Source: Leptobrachium leishanense (lineage: Eukaryota > Chordata > Amphibia > Anura > Megophryidae). From it: a DNA stretch of 64,000 nt. The stretch covers positions 1 through 64,000 of the forward strand of contig RXON01001648.1 of assembly GCA_009667805.1 (NCBI GenBank), written 5' to 3'. The notes under the pieces are model-generated. The model worked only from the letters and a program-made list of their open reading frames with translations. It had not been told where the DNA came from and ran no database searches. Below are positions 54,181 through 64,000 of this stretch, piece after piece. Position numbers and translations under genes: made by a program. Within the stretch, counting starts at the first letter, position 1; each line of letters begins with the position of its first letter.

Positions 54181-55430
54181 CGCTGCGCCACCAGACGCAA
54201 ACCGACCCCACATTACAGGGCTACCGGGACCGAGCTGGTCAGGGCCCGGACGGCCAGGGGAAAGACAAGGTGGAGTGGGAGGATGGGCTGCTGTACCGTT
54301 ACACCGTGAGGGAGGGGGCCAAGAAGAAGCAGATTCCGCAGAAGCAGCTGGTGGTGCCGCAGGGACCCAGGCAGGAGCTTCTGCGCTTGGCCCACGACAT
54401 ACCCCTTGCAGGTCACTTAGGCCAGAGTAAAACCCGGCACAGGTTGGCGCGCGCGCGTTTTACTGCCTCGCCTTAGCAACGACACCCGCGACTATTGCCG
54501 CACCTGCCCAGTTTGCCAGAAAGCTGGGAAGGCCGGGGACCATCCGAAGGCGCCCTTGCGGCCCATGCCCATTATCCAGGAGCCCTTTAGCCGGGTGGCG
54601 GTGGACATCGTAGGGCCGTTGCCACGGCCCAGTGCCACCGGTAAGAGGTATATTCTTACCGTAGTGGATTATGCCACCCGGTACCCCGAGGCTGTGGCCT
54701 TGGCCAACATCCAGGCGGACACCGTAGCAGACGCGCTCCTCAGGGTGTTCACGAGGGTAGGGTTTCCCCGAGAAATCCTATCCGATCAGGGTACCCAGTT
54801 TACCGCTGAGCTCACCCAACAGCTCTGGCGTCTCTGTGGCGTTAAGGCGCTGCACAGCGCCCCGTATCACCCCCAGACCAACGGGCTGTGCGAGCGGTTC
54901 AATGGGACCCTGAAGCAGCTCATCCGGGCCTTTGTGCATGAGAACAGGGACTGGGAGAAGTATCTTCCCCACTTGCTGTTCGCCTACCGGGAGGTTCCGC
55001 AGGAATCCACCGGTACTCACCCTTTGAGCTGCTATATGGACGCCGGGTGCGAGGTCCCCTGGATCTGGTTAGGGCTCAGTGGGAGGGGGCGCCGGAGGAG
55101 GACGGAGTTCCCGTGGTGGAGTACGTCCTGAAGCTGCGGGAGCGCTTGGCGGACCTCCAGGGGTTCGTGCAGGAGAACATGGAGACGGCCCAGGCTCAGC
55201 AGAAGGCGTGGTACGATCGCGCTGCGTGCAGCCGCTCGTTCTGTGTGGGACAGAAGGTTCTGGTGTTAAAACCACAGCGGCAGAACAAGCTGCAGGCGGC
55301 CTGGCAAGGTCCCTACAAGGTGGTAACCCAGCTGGGGGATACCACCTATGTGGTTGTTAGCTGCGCGGACACCAGAATCCAGCGGACGTTCCACGTCAAT
55401 ATGCTGAAGGCCTTCCATGAGCGGCCAGAG
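54180..55430 (+). pseudogene. Integrase of Gmr1-like copy 2, two frameshifts
   Basis: The N-terminal zinc-binding domain is split: 'AHDIPLAGHLGQSKTRHRL' in one frame and 'YCRTCPVCQKAG' in the next (shift near 54450). The catalytic core, from about 54556, is intact with Asp at 54604, Asp at 54784 in 'SDQGTQF' and Glu at 54892 in 'NGLCERFNGT' (D-x35-E). A second shift near 55010 moves into the frame that holds the C-terminal part ('WQGPYKVVTQLGDTTYVVV') and continues directly into RT. Confidence 0.88.
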
Positions 55431-56940
55431 ACGGTGGACGCCATATGCGTGCCGGCGGCCGAGAGAGATGGAACCCTTTCCCTTGGAGGAACTCCCGGGG
55501 TAGCCAAGCAGCCTTCCGGGGTGGAGCAGGTGCAGCTGGGGGGGGAGCTAGGGCCCGAGAAACAGGCGCAGGCGCGGCAGCTGCTGCGCGCCTATCCGGG
55601 GGTTTTCTCGGCCCTCCCGGGATATACGGACCAGGCCGTCCATCAGGTGGACACACCCGGTCAGAAACCACTCCGACAGCCCGCCTACCGGATCCCGGAA
55701 GCAGTCCGCGAGTCTATGCGGGCCGAGATCCGGGAGATGTTGGAGCTGGGGGTCATTGAGCCGTCGGCCAGCCCATGGGCGTCGCCCGTGGTCCTGGTGC
55801 CCAAAAAGGACGGTACAACCAGGTTCTGCGTCGACTATCGGCGGATAAACGACTGTACTGTTACGGACGCTTATCCGATGCCCCGAGTCGACGAGTTGCT
55901 AGACCAGATCTCCGGGGGTCATTTTCTGACCACGGTGGATCTGTGCAAGGGGTATTGGCAGATTCCCCTTGCCGAGGAGGCGACCCCGAAGTCGGCCTTC
56001 ATCACCCCGTTCGGCCTGTACCAGTTTCGAGTCATGCCGTTCGGGATGAAGAACGCCCCTGCTACCTTCCAGCGGTTAATCGATCGCCTCCTCGATGGCC
56101 TCCAGGGATTCGCTTGCGCGTACCTGGATGATATAGCCATCTATAGCCAGACCTGGGAGGAACATCTGGAGCATGTAGGGACTGTCCTGGGCCGGATTAG
56201 GGACGCCAACCTGACCCTAAAGCCGGAGAAGTGTAAGGTGGGGATGGCCGAGGTGCAGTATCTGGGCCACCGGGTGGGGTGCGGGATACAACGGCCGGAG
56301 CCCGCGAAGATAGAGGCTATCCTCGATTGGCCCACCCCGGTGACCAAGACCCAGGTCCTGGCCTTTCTGGGTACCGCGGGGTACTACAGAAAATTTGTAC
56401 CCCATTACAGTGACCTGGCCAAACCCCTGACCGATCTGACCAAGAAATCTCTGCCCCGCCAAGTCCTGTGGTCCCCGGAGTGCGAACAGGCCTTCCGCAG
56501 CTGAAGGCCGCCCTGACCCAAGCTCCCCTGCTGGCAGCTCCCAACTATAATAAACGTTTTATTGTCCACACAGACGCGTCCATGTTCGGACTGGGAGCTG
56601 TCCTGAGTCAAGTGGGGGACGACGGGGGGGACCATCCGGTGGCGTTTATTAGCCGGAAGTTGTTGCCACGAGAGGTGGGGTATGCTGCAGTGGAAAAGGA
56701 GTGCCTGGCCCTGGTCTGGGCCCTACGGAAGCTCCAACCCTACGTCTACGGTCGGTCTTTCACCGTGATGACCGACCATAACCCCTTGGTATGGCTCAAC
56801 CGAGTGGCGGGGGAGAAAGGCCGCCTGTTGCGGTGGAGCCTGGCTCTCCAACCCTTCAACTTTTCCATCCAATATCGGCCCGGGTCGCAGAACGGTAACG
56901 CAGATGGGTTATCGCGACAGTCGGCCCGGGAACCAGGGGA
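55431..56940 (+). pseudogene. Reverse transcriptase-RNase H of Gmr1-like copy 2
   Basis: In one frame with the integrase C-terminus (55047-56504), so integrase and RT were made as one polyprotein in that order. RT blocks are 'LGVIEPSASPWASPVVLVP', 'TVDLCKGYWQIPL', 'FGLYQFRVMPFGMKNAP' and the catalytic Tyr-Leu-Asp-Asp at 56121-56132. A frameshift at about 56500 leads into RNase H ('HTDASMFGLGAVLS', 'VEKECLALVWAL', 'TDHNPL'), which ends near 'NADGLSRQ' at about 56920. Apart from this single shift the 560-codon region is open. Confidence 0.9.
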
Positions 56941-57001
56941 TTGGGGAGCCCCGACTACCTCAGTACGACCCGGTGGGGTCCAACCGAGTGCGTCGGACCT
57001 T

Positions 57002-57016
57002 GGGGAGGGGGAGGAG
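57002..57016 (+). other. Polypurine tract of copy 2
   Basis: GGGGAGGGGGAGGAG directly precedes the 3' LTR, as needed to prime plus-strand DNA synthesis. Confidence 0.85.
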
Positions 57017-58136
57017 TGTCACGGGATGGCCCAGCAACCCCAGCCAGGGGCGGTGCAGTGACAATGGGGACATGGACACTTGGGTGTGGTGGCACACACC
57101 CGTTTATCAGTATTTTTATTTAGATGTGATTGTGTGGTGTTAATAAAGTGTTCCCCGTTGGTTTATGGTGTAATGTATTTTCCCTTGTTTGCCTTGCTCG
57201 CCGCCATTTTCCGATCCTTGTGGCGCAGTTGGAATTCTCGTTTCGTAAAATGGCCGATTCGAACCATCCGGTTCGAATCGTAAAATGGCCGATTCGGACC
57301 ATCCGGTCCGAATTGGCGACTCCCTGAAGGCCAAGGGCCAATGGGTCCTGGGAGGGCGGGCAAGGAGTCCCATTGTATTCTAATTGTGTGCAGAGGTAAT
57401 AAATGCTTGGACTGTAATCAATAAAGGCAGATTCTGCAGTGCATTCAGCTTTGACTGGTGTGACTTTATTCTCCACCGTATTTTCGCATCTGAGTGTCCC
57501 CCGCGGCCTCAGAGTACGGTGCCCACTCGGATACGATCCGAATCGAGCGCTCTGACCCTGCATCGAGTATCAGGGCAGAGGCGCTGCTCAGGAAGATTCG
57601 GTCCCAGGAAGACGGAGATCCGAACCGAACGGCCCAGCCGGGAACCGCGCTTCGGCATTGCGGTAAGACCCGAACTCTCCACTGGTCCCGCCATATCCGA
57701 AGCTCCCTCCCATACCGATCCGAAGCCTTCCAGTTCCGATCCGACCCGCCATCCCTTCCCGACTCGAAACCTCCACCGCCCAAGATCCGAAGAGACACCC
57801 GCCCCCGGATCGGAAACGTTTCCCGCATAAGATCCGAAACGTTTCCCATAAAGATCCGAATCTTTCTCCGCGGCTGCTAGGGCCGATTCCCACAGGCGTC
57901 CCACACCCGCCAGGTCAGGGAACCAGTTGCTCGGGACGCTGAGTGCTGCGCGGCTCAGTGGTCGGACTGGTTCCAGGCAGAGGTCCCCTCCACCGCCCGC
58001 TAACCCTACTCTAGGGTCACGCCAGGCCGCACGAGACGCCGAGTGTGCGCCACTCGGTAGTCGGGCCAGCGGTAAGCGACGGGGTCACGCAGATAGAGCA
58101 CACCCGCAGGCGGAACAACATCTCCATTCCGTCATA
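57017..58136 (+). repeat. 3' LTR of Gmr1-like copy 2
   Basis: Begins TGTCACGGGATGGCCC and ends CATTCCGTCATA, then the duplicated GGGGG. Nearly identical to the 5' LTR; differences are mostly homopolymer lengths. Confidence 0.93.
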
Positions 58137-58141
58137 GGGGG

Positions 58142-58500
58142 TATCTGCTAAGTATCCTTTTCTTGCTTCATGAAAATGTAGTGTGGGTGGGCACAATGTA
58201 GAACATGAATTTCTGTATATGCCTGAATGTCTCATCCAACTCCTGGGGCGGGATATCCTTTGCAAATTGCAAGCCCAAATTACATTTCTTCCCGGGGGTC
58301 ACGCTAGATTAGACCTGCCTGAAAGTGGCAGCTCTGTACGGCAGTATAACCCAGCCAGCCAGGACACCCAACCTGTAAAAATCACAGTAATTATGCCCAG
58401 AGAAGAAGAATGGCGGACGGCAACAACCCTGCCGGTCTCCCCAGACCCATACACACTACTCCTGGGAGTCCCTGGAGTCTGGGCAGAAGAGAACCCGTCC
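58142..58500 (+). pseudogene. ERV protease C-terminus and start of pol
   Basis: Resumes the protease cut at 51217. 'EHEFLYMPECLIQLLGRDI' holds the LLGRD block near the end of retroviral proteases, followed by a linker into RT. A frame change near 58500 leads to the RT frame. Confidence 0.8.
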
Positions 58501-59809
58501 CAAGACAATATCATATCCCACAGAAGGCCAAACAGAACATACAGACACATTTACAGAGACTTAAAGATCACGGGATACTGAAATTCTGCATGTCACCGTG
58601 GAACACACCACTACTGCCAGTTCAGAAAGAGGGCACTCAAGAATACCACCCAGTCTAAGATCTAAGGGCCGTCAATGAAGCCACAGTGACCCTACACCCT
58701 GTGGTTCCCAATCCGTACAATTTATTAGCATTAATTCCTGGCGGTACAAAATATTACAAAGTGCTTGATTTAAAAGACGCTTTCTTTTGCATCCGCCTCG
58801 CTCCTGCAAGCCAGCCCCTTTTTGCTTTCCAGTGGGAGGAATCTACTACAGGAGCGTGCCACCAGATGACATGGACACGCCTCCCTCAAGGTTTCAAAAA
58901 CTTGCCCACGATTTTTGGTTGCGCGCTCAGCCAGGACCTCCTGTCCTTCAACGTTCAGCCAGACAAGGTTGTCTTACTACAGTATGTAGATGATTGATTA
59001 CTTGCTTCCCCCACAGAAAAAGACTGTCTCTCTGCCACAAAGGCCCTGTTGCATCTGCTATGTCAAGCAGGATATAAGGTTTCCAGAAAGGAAGCAGTAT
59101 GCCGTATACCCCAGCCAAAGACAAGGAGACAAGTCCGTGAATTCCTGGGAGCTGCAGGCTTCTGCCGCCTGTGGATCCCCAACTTTGCTGACATTGCCAA
59201 ACCCCTCCACCAAGCCACCAAGGGGGGAGAGCATGACCCTTTCCTCTGGGAAGAAGAACAGGCGGCTGCCTTCCTGAAATTAAAGACCCTCCTGATGGAA
59301 GCTCCAGCACTGGGATTGCCAGACCACAGCAAACCTTTCCAGCTGTACGTGCACGAACATAACCAGACAGCTACAGGTGTGCTAATCCAGAACTTTGGTT
59401 CATGGCCAAGGCCTGTGGCCTACCTCTCTAAACAACTTGACCCTGTGGCCTGCGACCTACCCCCATGTTTGAAAGCAGTGGCAGCTACCGCAATGCTCAT
59501 CGCTGAAGCTGACAAGCTGACCCTCGGACAAGTACTTCATGTCAAGGTGCCACATGCAGTGAAAGCCCTGCTTGATGTGAAAGGCAGTTAATAGCAATAG
59601 CCGGATGACGAAGTACCAAGCCATGATGTGTGAGAATCCACTGGTTCATCTGGACCTCATCGCTACCCTGAATCCCGCTACGTTACTACCTGACTGTGAA
59701 GAGGATCCAAATCACGAATGCCTCCAAGTCATGGAAGAAGTATTCAGTAGCAGACCAGATCTGAATCCCCCACATCAAGTCTCTTTCCACCTCCTGCTGA
59801 TACCAACTG
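58500..59809 (+). pseudogene. pol: ERV reverse transcriptase, with stops
   Basis: RT blocks in one frame are 'HLQRLKDHGILKFCMSPWN', 'VLDLKDAFFCIRL', 'MTWTRLPQGFKNLPTIF' and the catalytic Tyr-Val-Asp-Asp at 58983-58994. The thumb/connection follows with 'QVREFLGAAGFCRLWIPNF'. In-frame stops are at 58656-58658 (TAA), 58995-58997 (TGA, right after the catalytic box) and 59589. A frame change after the last stop gives 'LNPATLLPD'. The Tyr-Val-Asp-Asp variant is typical of gammaretrovirus-like RTs. The gene is then cut by an L2 fragment. Confidence 0.9.
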
Positions 59810-60563
59810 CGTAATATTTCCTGAATTCGGACATTTCTTACCGCTGTCACCACAAAACAACTCATACACGCCCTGGTAATCTCCCGACTCGACTATTGCA
59901 ATAATCTCTTATCTGGCCTCCCTCTGTCCCGCCTCTCCCCTTTACAATCCATCCTGAACGCCTCCGCCAGGCTAATTCACCTCACCCGCCGCTCTGTCTC
60001 TGCCGCTCCCCTCTGCGAGTCCCTTCACTGGCTCCCCATCCACTGCAGAATTAAGTTCAAAATCCTTATTCTTACCTACAAAACCCTCACTAACTCAGCT
60101 CCCCACTACCTGTCCTCACTAATCACCAAATACACCCCAGCCCGCTCCCTAAGGTCAAACAGTGACCTGCGCCTAGCTTCTCCCCGCATCACCTCTTCCC
60201 ATGATAGACTGCAGGATTTCTCACGCGCAGCCCCCATTCTCTGGAACGCTCTCCCTCGTACTGTCAGACTTTCCCCTAACTTCTCTTCCTTCAAACGCTC
60301 CCTTAAAACATTCCTATTTAGGGAAGCCGACCCCCCCAACTCACTGACGCAACCATCAATCACTCTCACCTTACAGTCCTCTCCTCCTGTTTCCAACCCC
60401 AACCCTCCCAGATTGTGAATTCCTACGGGAATAGGGCCTCATCTCCTCCTGTACTGTTTGTCAAATGTTGTTCAATGTATTGTAACCCTGTCTATACTGT
60501 GCTTATTGTACAGCGCTGCGGAATATGCTGGCGTTTTATAAATAAAGAATAATAATAATAATA
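59810..60563 (+). mobile_element. L2 LINE 3' fragment inserted in ERV pol
   Basis: A 5'-truncated L2. The frame from about 59814 gives the end of ORF2 ('HALVISRLDYCNNLLSGLP', 'LHWLPIHCRIKFKILILTY', 'PILWNALPRTVRL') down to a TGA at 60416-60418, with one internal TGA near 59832. The 3' UTR begins in the codons around AGATTGTGA, the region that seeded the minisatellites at 4166 and 7447. It ends with GCGCTGCGGAATATGCTGGC, AATAAAG and an (ATA)n tail. There is no start codon near the truncation, so it is not a gene. Confidence 0.92.
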
Positions 60564-61085
60564 ATGAAAGACATACCCCTAGACAAATACAACCTACAGT
60601 TATTCACTGATGGTAGCAGATACATGGATGATGGGAAAAAGGTCTCCGGCTATGCAGTTGTCTCAGCAGAAGCAGTCCTTGAAGCTAACCCCCTACCAGG
60701 CCATACGTCAGCGCAACTGGCTGAGATAACAGCCCTGACCAGGGCGCTTGAAATCTCCAAAGGAAAAAGAGTGAACATTTATACTGACTCCAAGTATGCC
60801 TTTATGACTGTCCATGCACATAGTGCACTATATAAGGAGAGAGGCCTACTTTCTTCTTCAGGACAACAAATCAAGTATGCAGCTGAGATTGCAGCCCTTC
60901 TAGAGGCTGTGTGGAAACCAAGTGCTGTCAGTATTATGCACTGTCGTGGTCACCAGAAGGGTCATGACGAAATCCCAGAGGGTAATAGACGAGCCGACCA
61001 GGCTGCAAAAGCTGCTGTGAAACCACTGTTACCCACTGATCAAGCCTCCAAGGTCCTCCTCTGCAAGCAAGATGATCAACTTCCC
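60564..61085 (+). pseudogene. pol: ERV RNase H
   Basis: The frame resumes immediately after the L2 tail; the ATG at 60564 is only the junction. All four acidic catalytic positions are visible: Asp in 'LFTDGSRYMDD', Glu in 'TSAQLAEITALTRALE', Asp in 'NIYTDSKYAF' and Asp in 'NRRADQAAK', plus 'HCRGHQKGH'. The domain degrades RNA in RNA-DNA hybrids. It has no stop or frameshift, and its frame runs without break into the OGFr-like domain. Confidence 0.9.
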
Positions 61086-61696
61086 ATGCCAAACTACAAA
61101 TTCTATATGAATTGGAGAAAATTTGACCCAAAAGGCGAATTCATCTAAACCATTTTACAGAAGTGGAATACCAATTTTGAAGTGCTCGAAGACAACCATG
61201 ATTATATCCAAGGGCTTTTTCCAACTCGCTCTCAAGGCCGAAATTTCTACTCTACACCTCTAAACCCCCAGGAAACACGACTCATGAATAGCACCTCAGA
61301 ACTTCAGCAGAGACTCCGCCGAGCATACAAGATGATGCTGAAGTTCTTCGGCGTAAAATTAGTGGGGGAGAGTGGAGAAGATACAGAAGTAACCAAAGTT
61401 GAACGAGCAGAAAATTTCGCCGAACGCTTTGACAATCTAACAGCCAACCATCATAACAATTTGAGGATCACACGTGTGCTGCTAAGCTTGGGAGAACTGG
61501 GAGCAGTAGAATACCAAGGCACACTGGTGAAGTTCTTTCTCAAAGAGACCCTTATCGAACACAACCTGCCACGAATGAAGAAAAGCGTGATGAACTTCTT
61601 TGTGCCAGCGGTGAGAGATGTGCAGAAGAGGCAAGACCTGCTGTACTTCGCCTGACGACATTACCAACCAAGAGAAGAATTAATCTGGGGGAACAG
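61086..61696 (+). pseudogene. OGFr_N-like (opioid growth factor receptor conserved) domain inside ERV pol
   Basis: About 203 codons in the RNase H frame. It starts 'MPNYKFYMNWRKFDPKGEF' and includes 'LEDNHDYIQGLFPT', 'LRRAYKMMLKFFGVKL', 'HNNLRITRVLLSLGELG' and 'LVKFFLKETLIEHNLP', ending near 'EELIWGN'. These are, in order, the conserved blocks of the OGFr_N family (Pfam PF04664), which in vertebrates is the N-terminal part of the nuclear-envelope/nuclear opioid growth factor receptor OGFR. The domain is full-length and without introns, as for capture from a spliced host mRNA. Two in-frame stops (TAA 61146-61148, TGA 61656-61658) and no frameshift are present. It lies exactly between RNase H and integrase. 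Its role in a virus is unknown. Confidence 0.88.
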
Positions 61697-62944
61697 GAGG
61701 AACTTGAGAGATACAAAGCCACACCAACGGTGGTAGCCCCACTACTACCGGCTCCATTGAGTGAATGGACACCTGTGTACTCGGAGAAAGAGAAGAAATG
61801 GCTATCGGAAGAACAAGGAGAATATGGAGAAGACGGATGGTTCCAGTTGGCTAGCAGACACATAGTCCTGGCGGCAACATTGGCACCTGAGATCGTCAGA
61901 GCACTCCACGCAAGCACTCATGGAGGAAGAGAGATGATGGAACAACAGCTGGAGTCACATTTCTACGTGCCAGGACTATCAGTAGTCTGTAAAGCAATAG
62001 CCCAGCAGTGTGTGACATGTGCCAAGAATAATGCAAGAGCAGGCCCATCTCAACCTCCAGGGAAGCAGCCAATCGGGCTGTCCCCAATGGCATCGTTACA
62101 GATAGACTTCACAGTGCTCCCACCCTGCAAAGGATACAAATATCTACTAGTGATGGTGTGCACTCTAACAGGATGGGTGGAGGCCTTCCCCACAAGCACG
62201 GAGAAGACAACAGAAGTAGTGAGAAGTCTAATGAAAGAAATAATACCATGATATGGACTTCCCCTCGAAATAGGGTCAGATAACGGCCCAGCTTTTATAC
62301 AGAACTGTTTGCAGCAGCTTGCCCGCCTGTTGGGCATAACCTGGAAGCTACATACAGCCTACAGGCCCCAAAGCTTGGGAAAAGTCCGTATGAACAGAAC
62401 ACTAAAGACCTTGATGTCTAAACTGTGCCAAGAAACGTCACTAGGCTGGTTGGATGTGCTGCCGATAGCTTTATTGCACATTAGGTGCAGGCCAACCCCC
62501 CAATTGAAGCTAAGTCCGTACGAACTCATGTTTGGACGGCCTACCCCTCTAATTAATGGATTAAGGGGGGACCTTCGGGCATTGGGTGAAACTAAACTGA
62601 ATGAACAGGTTGTATTGTTGGGTAGATCAATGTAGAAGCTAAATACTTGGGTGGGAGATAATTTACCTCACTTTTTATATCCCCCACTGCATAAGTATTG
62701 TCCAGGTAACTCGGTTTGGGTGAAGGAGTGGAAAAATGACCCACTAGGCCCAAAATGGAGAGGTCCTTACCTTGTCCTGTTATCAACCCCCACAGCAGTG
62801 AAGGTTGCCGAGGTGGTCCCGTGGATACATCACTCCAGACTGAAAGCGGCTGCAGCCAATCCTGAACCAGAGTGGAAGGTCATCACCAACGAGACCAATC
62901 CATTGAGGCTAAAGCTGACAAAAACCGCAGTCCCGAGCACCTAA
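61697..62944 (+). pseudogene. pol: ERV integrase, catalytic Glu codon missing
   Basis: Reads in a different frame from the OGFr-like domain, so a frameshift separates them. The zinc-binding part has 'ALHASTHGG' and 'QQCVTCAKNN'. The core has Asp at 62105 in 'LQIDFTVLPP' and Asp at 62279 in 'SDNGPAF'. At the third position (62384-62392, 'GKVRMNRT') no Glu codon is present, consistent with loss of three bases. In-frame stops are at 62249-62251 and 62633-62635. The C-terminal part reads 'WRGPYLVLLSTPTAVKV', the gammaretroviral type of GPY/F module. It ends at TAA 62942-62944. Confidence 0.88.
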
Positions 62945-63079
62945 GAAGACTCAACAAGTGGGTGTTTTGAAGGCCACAATAATGCCAGACCACCCACCAG
63001 CGAGGGAGCAAGGGAGTCCCCAGAGGGATGCCCCAAGGGCTATTTTTAGGGGACCCGCCCGACCCTTGTCCAACCAGAG

Positions 63080-64000
63080 ATGACTTTTACTTTTGAAATA
63101 CCGGTGGGGAGGGATTGGATTTATGTGACTGTGAAAAGAATTGCCCAAGGGATTTTGACATTTGGGGCATTTTTGGTGCTAATACTGTACCTTGCTAATC
63201 TGATATATGGACTATCACATGGAGCGTGTCCCAGGTGTCCAAGCACAACCAAGAAAGTGGACATCTCCCACATCTGGAATGGTACACATCCGGTGGTGGA
63301 GAACCGTACCATGTGGAGACAAAAGCGAGATGCGGAGTCTGAGACTGCGCCAAGAGGGCACCTGCTTGTGAAATTTAAATATGCATACGCAAAGAAATCA
63401 GGCCAGACTGCGTGTTGGGTGTGCAGCAGATTGCACATAGAGACAATTTATATTCCTTTTGCTGCAATTCCTATGAACTTAAGTACATTTACAACTGGAA
63501 ATATTACGATACACACCATTGCCAATCCTCAGGTTAAACCGGATGCATTCACCCCCGATTACCCAATATCGGGACCAGTGTACCCATCAGAATGGTGTTT
63601 CCAGATAGGGATGAATGGTTCAGGGAAAGGCGAGCACCCGTGTCAGTCAAGTAGATTTAATTGGACTTCACATGTGGTAAAGATAGAGACAGGGCCAAGG
63701 ATATTAATGCTTAGGCCAATACGGCTTACCCGAGACCAACAACAGACGATTGCTGATGTGACTGTGGATAAATGAAATGCACTGGATCTTGTGATACGAT
63801 TGGGGCGAATGATGGTAGAAATGACAAAGGGAACACTTCACCTATCACCATTCATACTGACTGGGGGTTATCAGGTGTGTTGTGGAAGAGTGTGTTGTGG
63901 AAGAGTGTGTTACTCATGGGTACCACCTACAGTAACAGGGATGTGTTATTTGGCCAGGCTGATTCCGATTCAAAGGGTACGGGGGAGATGACATTGACGC
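63080..64000 (+). pseudogene. env: ERV envelope, N-terminal (surface) part, continuing past the window
   Basis: The ATG at 63080, 135 bases after integrase, opens a 231-codon frame. Residues ~20-45 form a hydrophobic segment (leader/signal-anchor), followed by a basic 'MWRQKRD' stretch at residue ~80. Six N-glycosylation sequons (NGT, NRT, NLS, NIT, NGS, NWT) and a CWVC motif (63413-63424, CXXC type) point to a retroviral surface subunit. An in-frame TGA lies at 63773-63775. The same frame continues with 'GGYQVCCGRVCCGRVCYSW' and 'CYLARLIPIQRV' to another TGA at 63989. The CCGRV duplication looks like local slippage. No overlap with pol, unlike most gammaretroviruses. Confidence 0.8.

Follow-up and report, generated by a model that had tools for sequence, protein, structure and literature searches.

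Retroviruses that carry an extra domain or a captured host gene are known from two kinds of system. In the dUTPase-bearing nonprimate lentiviruses, an additional enzyme is located between RNase H and integrase and is made as a proteolytic product of Gag-Pol; according to the part of that source consulted, most studies find it to be critical only in nondividing cells (PMC4531489). Crocodilian endogenous retroviruses (ERVs) with KIT-ligand or nectin3 sequences captured host mRNAs, present either as a separate open reading frame (ORF) between pol and env or as a nectin3-derived protein that replaces a viral part. In the KIT-ligand case no viral domain was lost and purifying selection is seen, and the excerpted text describes as uncommon those retroviruses in which a captured host gene is maintained as a functional component with no viral part given up in exchange (PMC4299795). 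Both the capture of host mRNA by ERVs and the presence of an extra domain at the RNase H/integrase site are thus already known. To our knowledge, dUTPase is the only extra domain known at that site. Here, we describe a 64,000-nucleotide stretch of the genome of the Leishan moustache toad, Leptobrachium leishanense (contig RXON01001648.1, positions 1 to 64,000; referred to below as the window), in which the pol gene of a decayed provirus contains a domain of the opioid growth factor receptor (OGFR) family, OGFr_N, placed after RNase H and before integrase. The domain shares the Pol position of the lentiviral dUTPase but differs in being OGFr_N (PF04664), in belonging to a class I retrovirus, and in having a traceable toad source gene, and its release from Pol is putative. 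As in the crocodilian ERVs, a host mRNA appears to have been captured by an ERV lineage, but in the toad ERV the host segment is fused inside pol.

The captured domain spans window positions 61086 to 61696 on the forward strand. The PF04664 profile matched positions 61149 to 61652 (168 amino acids) with an E value of 1.2e-57 and 195 bits against a cut-off of 22, covering profile positions 28 to 189 of 208. A first-pass annotation, made from the letters of the DNA, had proposed an OGFr_N domain here and suggested this profile search; with a score well above the cut-off, the match is not a chance one. The start of the domain (MPNYKFYMNWRKF) lies within the preceding open piece (60546 to 61145), behind RNase H and in the same frame, and these 30 residues searched alone gave no Pfam match. 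No Pfam family other than PF04664 was detected in the open piece at this pol position. The captured domain may work like an accessory Pol domain but is not a dUTPase. The annotation had also described OGFr_N as continuing the RNase H frame and being followed by integrase. The shared frame is confirmed, but it is not continuously open, being broken by a TAA codon (61146 to 61148) and by a frame change near the 3′ end, and the OGFr_N frame closes with the ORF at 61149 to 61655. Integrase is indeed found downstream (PF17921 and PF00665), but in the window copy it is read in a different frame (ORF 61457 to 62251). A conserved tryptophan of the domain is replaced by glycine (IQGLFP), and the window copy is dead.

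To place the window copy in a family, the 3.54-Gb assembly of L. leishanense, the one species covered by the family searches, was searched with PF04664. The search returned 5,871 first-look candidates, 150 of which were scored; all 150 genomic places exceeded the cut-off, and the best covered profile positions 4 to 208 of 208. The copy number is large. One sample consisted of 2-kb pieces around 40 of the 150 scored places, 20 chosen for long open frames and 20 mostly for high scores, and RNase H upstream and integrase downstream of OGFr_N were found on the same strand in 40/40. The other sample consisted of 20 copies taken, regardless of OGFr_N, at approximately regular intervals along the list of the 150 top-scoring integrase matches (17,420 candidates), and OGFr_N was present upstream of integrase in 20/20, with RNase H seen in the 1.1-kb piece in 15/20. 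When the samples, both of which were drawn from the best-scoring places and underrepresent diverged relatives, were pooled, integrase followed OGFr_N in 60/60 copies and RNase H preceded it in 55/60. The other fusion copies that the first-pass annotation asked for occur repeatedly in the genome. Neither of the outcomes that it named as contrary to its proposal was observed, namely the lack of an OGFr_N match or a fusion without other copies that was inserted after the provirus had decayed.

Many copies retain open frames. The RNase H-OGFr_N-integrase piece was free of stops in 17/40 copies of the first sample, of which 20/40 had been picked for long frames, and 11 of the 150 scored places were located inside open frames of 1,439 to 1,569 codons, by our own estimate about the length of a gammaretroviral pol plus 200 residues. 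Among the matches listed, 21 of 120 proteins combined PF04664 with RNase H or integrase families; 19 of these fusion proteins are named as L. leishanense and 2 are named to genus only. Two of the listed proteins (P0122 and P0124) contain RNase H, OGFr_N, and the integrase core in one polypeptide.

The element is assigned to class I, as gamma-like, because its reverse transcriptase (RT) is closest to murine leukemia virus (MLV) RT among solved structures (E value of ∼1e-41 for the MLV chains, compared to 2e-6 and weaker for the next RT group). PF18697, which we take to be the MLV-type integrase C-terminal domain, is present in P0012 and P0124. Pairs of long terminal repeats (LTRs) of 667 to 686 bp were found in 4 of 10 other family copies tested, with identities of 97.4, 98.95, 98.97, and 99.85%. 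Of the remaining copies, one had a 220-bp match at 100% that was cut by the edge of the piece, and five had no match or a short one only. A 4-nt target duplication, as in MLV-type retroviruses, was visible in two of the four copies with LTR pairs. The family differs from MLV-type viruses in carrying approximately 200 OGFr_N residues between RNase H and integrase. Because the LTR pairs are nearly identical, some copies are recent. The subfamilies are far apart, with pairwise synonymous distances (dS) from ∼0.1 to saturation and a between-subfamily synonymous divergence that is often >0.5.

The genome also contains the likely source. A tandem pair of toad OGFR-like genes is located on C12 at approximately 9.481 to 9.515 Mb (9481000 to 9515200; L055 to L058), and the genes have seven coding exons, encoding residues 1 to 31, 32 to 62, 63 to 87, 88 to 111, 112 to 133, 134 to 182, and 184 to 290. 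Exons of the UniRef L. leishanense proteins were matched at 100% in the assembly, divided over the two tandem genes, and two UniRef models, P0025 and P0026, seem to combine exons from the two. None of the host introns is present in the viral OGFr_N. Six decayed, old loci (L049 to L054), recruited with the 95 N-terminal host residues as the query, retain the host N terminus from about residue 3 and continue without introns into OGFr_N. Upstream, L049, L051, and L053 have RNase H and L050 has only the pol connection region; downstream, integrase is present in L049 and L053 and as a fragment in L054. The piece of L052 that was examined contained no pol, and this locus could be something else. Weaker traces of the host N terminus were seen in L005, L006, and L034. 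The linkers of L031 and L034 resemble host exon 2 residues, and these copies are possible intermediates in the loss of the N terminus.

The match of the old copies to the host extends beyond the coding sequence. In five of the six, the linker preceding the host N terminus matches the in-frame translation of the sequence that immediately precedes the start codon of one C12 gene. The linker score was reached by none of 5,000 shuffles for L052, L053, and L054, by 1 for L049, and by 7 for L051, in a test whose frame was set by the host coding part that follows and whose 24 compared codons were chosen after the match was seen. Ahead of this start codon, the C12 sequence has no stop for 66 codons and was taken as a putative 5′ untranslated region. 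In younger copies, most of the host N-terminal part is gone, and the host part ends near YKK in both old and younger copies. Because introns are missing and the N terminus and upstream stretch are kept in old copies, the captured piece would, by this evidence, be a spliced RNA that began ahead of the start codon and ended at about codon 275. The evidence strongly favors acquisition from such a spliced RNA, in agreement with the earlier proposal that an amphibian gammaretrovirus-like lineage acquired a host OGFR segment through RNA, and we regard the capture and the position of the domain as virtually certain.

The relationship to the host genes was examined with two trees. In a protein tree of 50 domains (P0002 was dropped, and a single species contributed the pelobatoid hosts), the split between the viral rows and all hosts received 100/100, and the split between the viral plus toad host rows and the 29 other host rows received 95.6/97. 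The viral domains thus form one clade beside the toad gene, which, together with the same neighbors in the sampled copies, adds to the case for acquisition from the host. A DNA tree of 52 of the 54 loci, the window copy, and two host sequences placed L049 and L054 nearest the host, followed by L001, L006, and L053 and then by L051 and L005; no host N terminus was detected in L001 at an E value of 0.01.

Selection was assessed with codon models on the intact pieces of 17 intact copies, of which 10 were used for RNase H, 12 for OGFr_N, and 12 for integrase. The ratio of nonsynonymous to synonymous substitution rates (omega) was 0.034 for RNase H, 0.167 for OGFr_N, and 0.090 for integrase, and fixing omega at 1 lowered the log likelihood by 174.8, 158.8, and 249.1 units, respectively. 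Pairwise comparisons of nine copies agreed with this, with median values of 0.03 (33/36 pairs usable), 0.13 (30 pairs), and 0.06 (23 pairs). The choice of stop-free copies does not in itself reduce omega. Selection thus acts on OGFr_N in the replicating lineage, more loosely than on its two neighbors, and we have very little doubt that the viral domain has a selected function. The stop-free frames and the omega value of ∼0.17 also bear out the first-pass view of the domain as a part of pol. Of 54 vertebrate-invariant columns, 47 are kept in at least 80% of the 11 viral rows, and of the 26 such columns that 16 metagenomic rows conserve as well, 24 are kept.

An AlphaFold2 model of the L009 domain (74 rows; pLDDT of 92.3 and pTM of 0.90) is predicted to be helical with one hairpin and is flanked by stretches of lower confidence. 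In the alignment, the hairpin loop is longer than that of the host. Neither a Foldseek search of the PDB nor a sequence search for a solved OGFr_N relative gave a match at an E value of 0.001, and VIA-align scores fell within the background for helical models. In BFVD, the only viral match at an E value of ≤0.001 was a stand-alone OGFr_N protein of Marseillevirus LCMAC202 (A0A481YX38), whose predicted fold is similar to that of the viral domain model (TM-scores of 0.65 and 0.73). Cellular OGFR, OGFRL1, and the stand-alone proteins belong to the same domain family as the viral OGFr_N, but the younger viral copies differ from them in lacking the host N- and C-terminal parts, in the longer hairpin loop, and in the fusion to RNase H and integrase. 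Two metagenomic proteins combine OGFr_N with metallophosphoesterase (PF12850 and PF00149) or HAD-type (PF13419 and PF00702) domains (P0151 and P0210) and offer a lead to a biochemical role. In a predicted OGFr protein, P0014, the domain is followed by a short LLSQVPVKD-like tandem repeat; the database assigns PF18875 to this protein.

The explanation that we consider best, and quite probable as a whole, is as follows. A class I gammaretrovirus-like virus of the Leptobrachium lineage would have captured a spliced toad OGFR-like RNA, from upstream of the ATG to about codon 275, which entered pol in frame, behind RNase H and ahead of integrase. Subsequent lineages would have shed most of the host N-terminal part and retained the OGFr_N fold, and the Pol-OGFr fusion would have diversified and multiplied, with some copies recent and the domain under purifying selection. 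Since selection preserved the domain, use of OGFr_N by the virus is suggested. Pol is made in small amounts and is packaged, and OGFr_N would be produced within Gag-Pol, packaged alongside RT and integrase, and either freed by protease or left attached. By analogy with the dUTPase at the same Pol position, it may act in the incoming core or preintegration complex; for such a Pol product acting in the early phase, we put the chances at about even. The likeliest step would be at or in the nucleus, with a ligand-binding or catalytic role as second choice. The nuclear step is favored because cellular OGFR is described, in the part of the source consulted, as residing at the outer nuclear envelope and as able to enter the nucleus, and a title cited there names karyopherin beta and Ran (PMC5876317); as a specific proposal it is rather doubtful. 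The residues common with distant OGFr_N proteins would fit a role in binding a ligand or in catalysis just as well. We tentatively propose, with somewhat less than even confidence, that the host-derived OGFr_N in Pol brings its own conserved biochemical function into the target cell, where it would assist the preintegration complex, possibly at the nuclear envelope. We know of no other retrovirus with such an accessory Pol function. Opioid signaling, which the first-pass annotation had listed as a possible role alongside cell-cycle arrest and nuclear entry, is, we think, the least likely ancestral role and an unlikely reason for the capture, because stand-alone OGFr_N proteins are encoded by a giant virus and are also seen in metagenomic data.

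Several observations weigh against parts of this explanation. The DNA tree, with only two hosts, gives an order and not a test of a single origin, and the upstream remnant is mostly not significant in younger copies. OGFr_N evolves faster than its neighbors (omega of 0.17 compared to 0.03 and 0.09), and the otherwise nearly invariant tyrosine of the FYG motif is phenylalanine in 11/11 viral rows. Structure comparison by Foldseek and VIA-align pointed to no activity, and the nuclear localization elements of OGFR are described, in the consulted part of the source, as accompanying OGFr_N rather than being part of the domain (PMC5876317). Both the wide differences between subfamilies, with best-match identities of OGFr_N to the host protein from ∼45 to 68%, and the restriction of the comparison to host genes of one pelobatoid species leave room for several independent captures of OGFR-like RNAs. 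We consider this very unlikely, given that the 100/100 split leaves every viral row together on the same side, that the sampled copies have the same neighbors on both flanks, that the host part ends near YKK in old and younger copies alike, and that five old copies have the upstream stretch in common. The faster evolution of OGFr_N and the many broken copies would also fit a passenger, a domain captured once and carried along without function. That account is largely contradicted, and we give it almost no weight: neutrality is disfavored by 158.8 log likelihood units at an omega of 0.167, all 20 copies picked regardless of the domain have it, and 17/40 pieces remain stop-free despite the synonymous divergence between subfamilies.

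If the domain is selected, it might serve the virus otherwise than through an activity in the incoming core. As a well-folded domain predicted between stretches of lower confidence, OGFr_N could be kept only as a structural spacer, a folded part of the size needed for Pol processing or assembly, but the retention of 24/26 columns common with distant OGFr_N proteins is more than a spacer should need, and this account is improbable. An effector directed at the infected cell, acting on the cell cycle or the OGFR pathway and not on the viral core, is slightly less improbable. OGFR is described as a regulator of cell growth in the part of the source consulted (PMC5876317), and other retroviral captures, such as Src, cyclin-like ORFs, and KIT-ligand, affect cell division or signaling according to the excerpted text (PMC4299795). 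However, the toad domain is inside Pol and is not a separate ORF, the younger copies lack most of the host N terminus and the host C-terminal tail, and the kept residues include those common with distant OGFr_N proteins. The capture into pol followed by purifying selection, with OGFr_N as a possible early-phase component, remains the explanation that we prefer.

Literature searches found no description of OGFr_N in a retrovirus and no case in which pol contains, after RNase H and before integrase, a fused segment traceable to a host mRNA. In one study of invading ERVs, L. leishanense is included in a figure legend, and the main text, as far as consulted, contains no match to OGF (PMC10435555). 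The finding is larger than the first-pass annotation had proposed: one genome shows the source gene, the probable RNA route, fuller old forms, the subsequent shedding of host parts, and purifying selection, and the capture is still readable down to the sequence upstream of the host start codon. A domain kept by a virus also offers a handle on the role of OGFr_N, a family that spans vertebrates, metagenomic sequence, and a giant virus.

In the window, OGFr_N is embedded in a decayed provirus that extends from ∼58174 to at least near the window end, with all features on the forward strand in the order protease remnant, RT, connection region, an insertion of ∼0.8 kb, RNase H, OGFr_N, integrase, and an env-like frame. 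The remnant of the retroviral aspartyl protease (58174 to 58578) is a C-terminal part at the start of the decayed pol, with a PF00077 match just under the cut-off (E value of 0.0014; 19.3 bits compared to 20.7). It is followed by an open piece of RT (58659 to 58994; PF00078, E value of 1.7e-12) and an open piece of the RT/connection region (58998 to 59588; PF17919, E value of 1.3e-13). A long interspersed nuclear element (LINE)-like insertion with an (AAT)n tail, at approximately 59781 to 60564, splits pol between RT and RNase H, as judged from the window ORFs and sequence and from P0009, in which pol is uninterrupted here; the ORF at 59825 to 60415 within it had no significant Pfam match, and the insertion is presumably L2-like. 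RNase H (60565 to 61085) lies directly upstream of the captured domain (PF00075, E value of 1.5e-25 on 60546 to 61145).

Downstream of OGFr_N, the integrase linker, H2C2 zinc domain, and start of the catalytic core occupy 61655 to 62251 (PF17921, E value of 4.4e-10; PF00665, E value of 4e-7, under its cut-off), and the remainder of the core is in another frame at 62252 to 62635 (PF00665, E value of 1.8e-4, also under its cut-off). The putative integrase C-terminal region (62636 to 62944) was assigned by position and by its likeness, by eye, to the tail of P0012, the PF18697-bearing protein. An env-like open frame (63050 to 63775) resembles the tail of P0022 by eye and had no Pfam match. Upstream of the ERV, a Ty3/gypsy-type pol, named from its sequence, is located at 54942 to 57061 with open frames of 520 and 215 codons.
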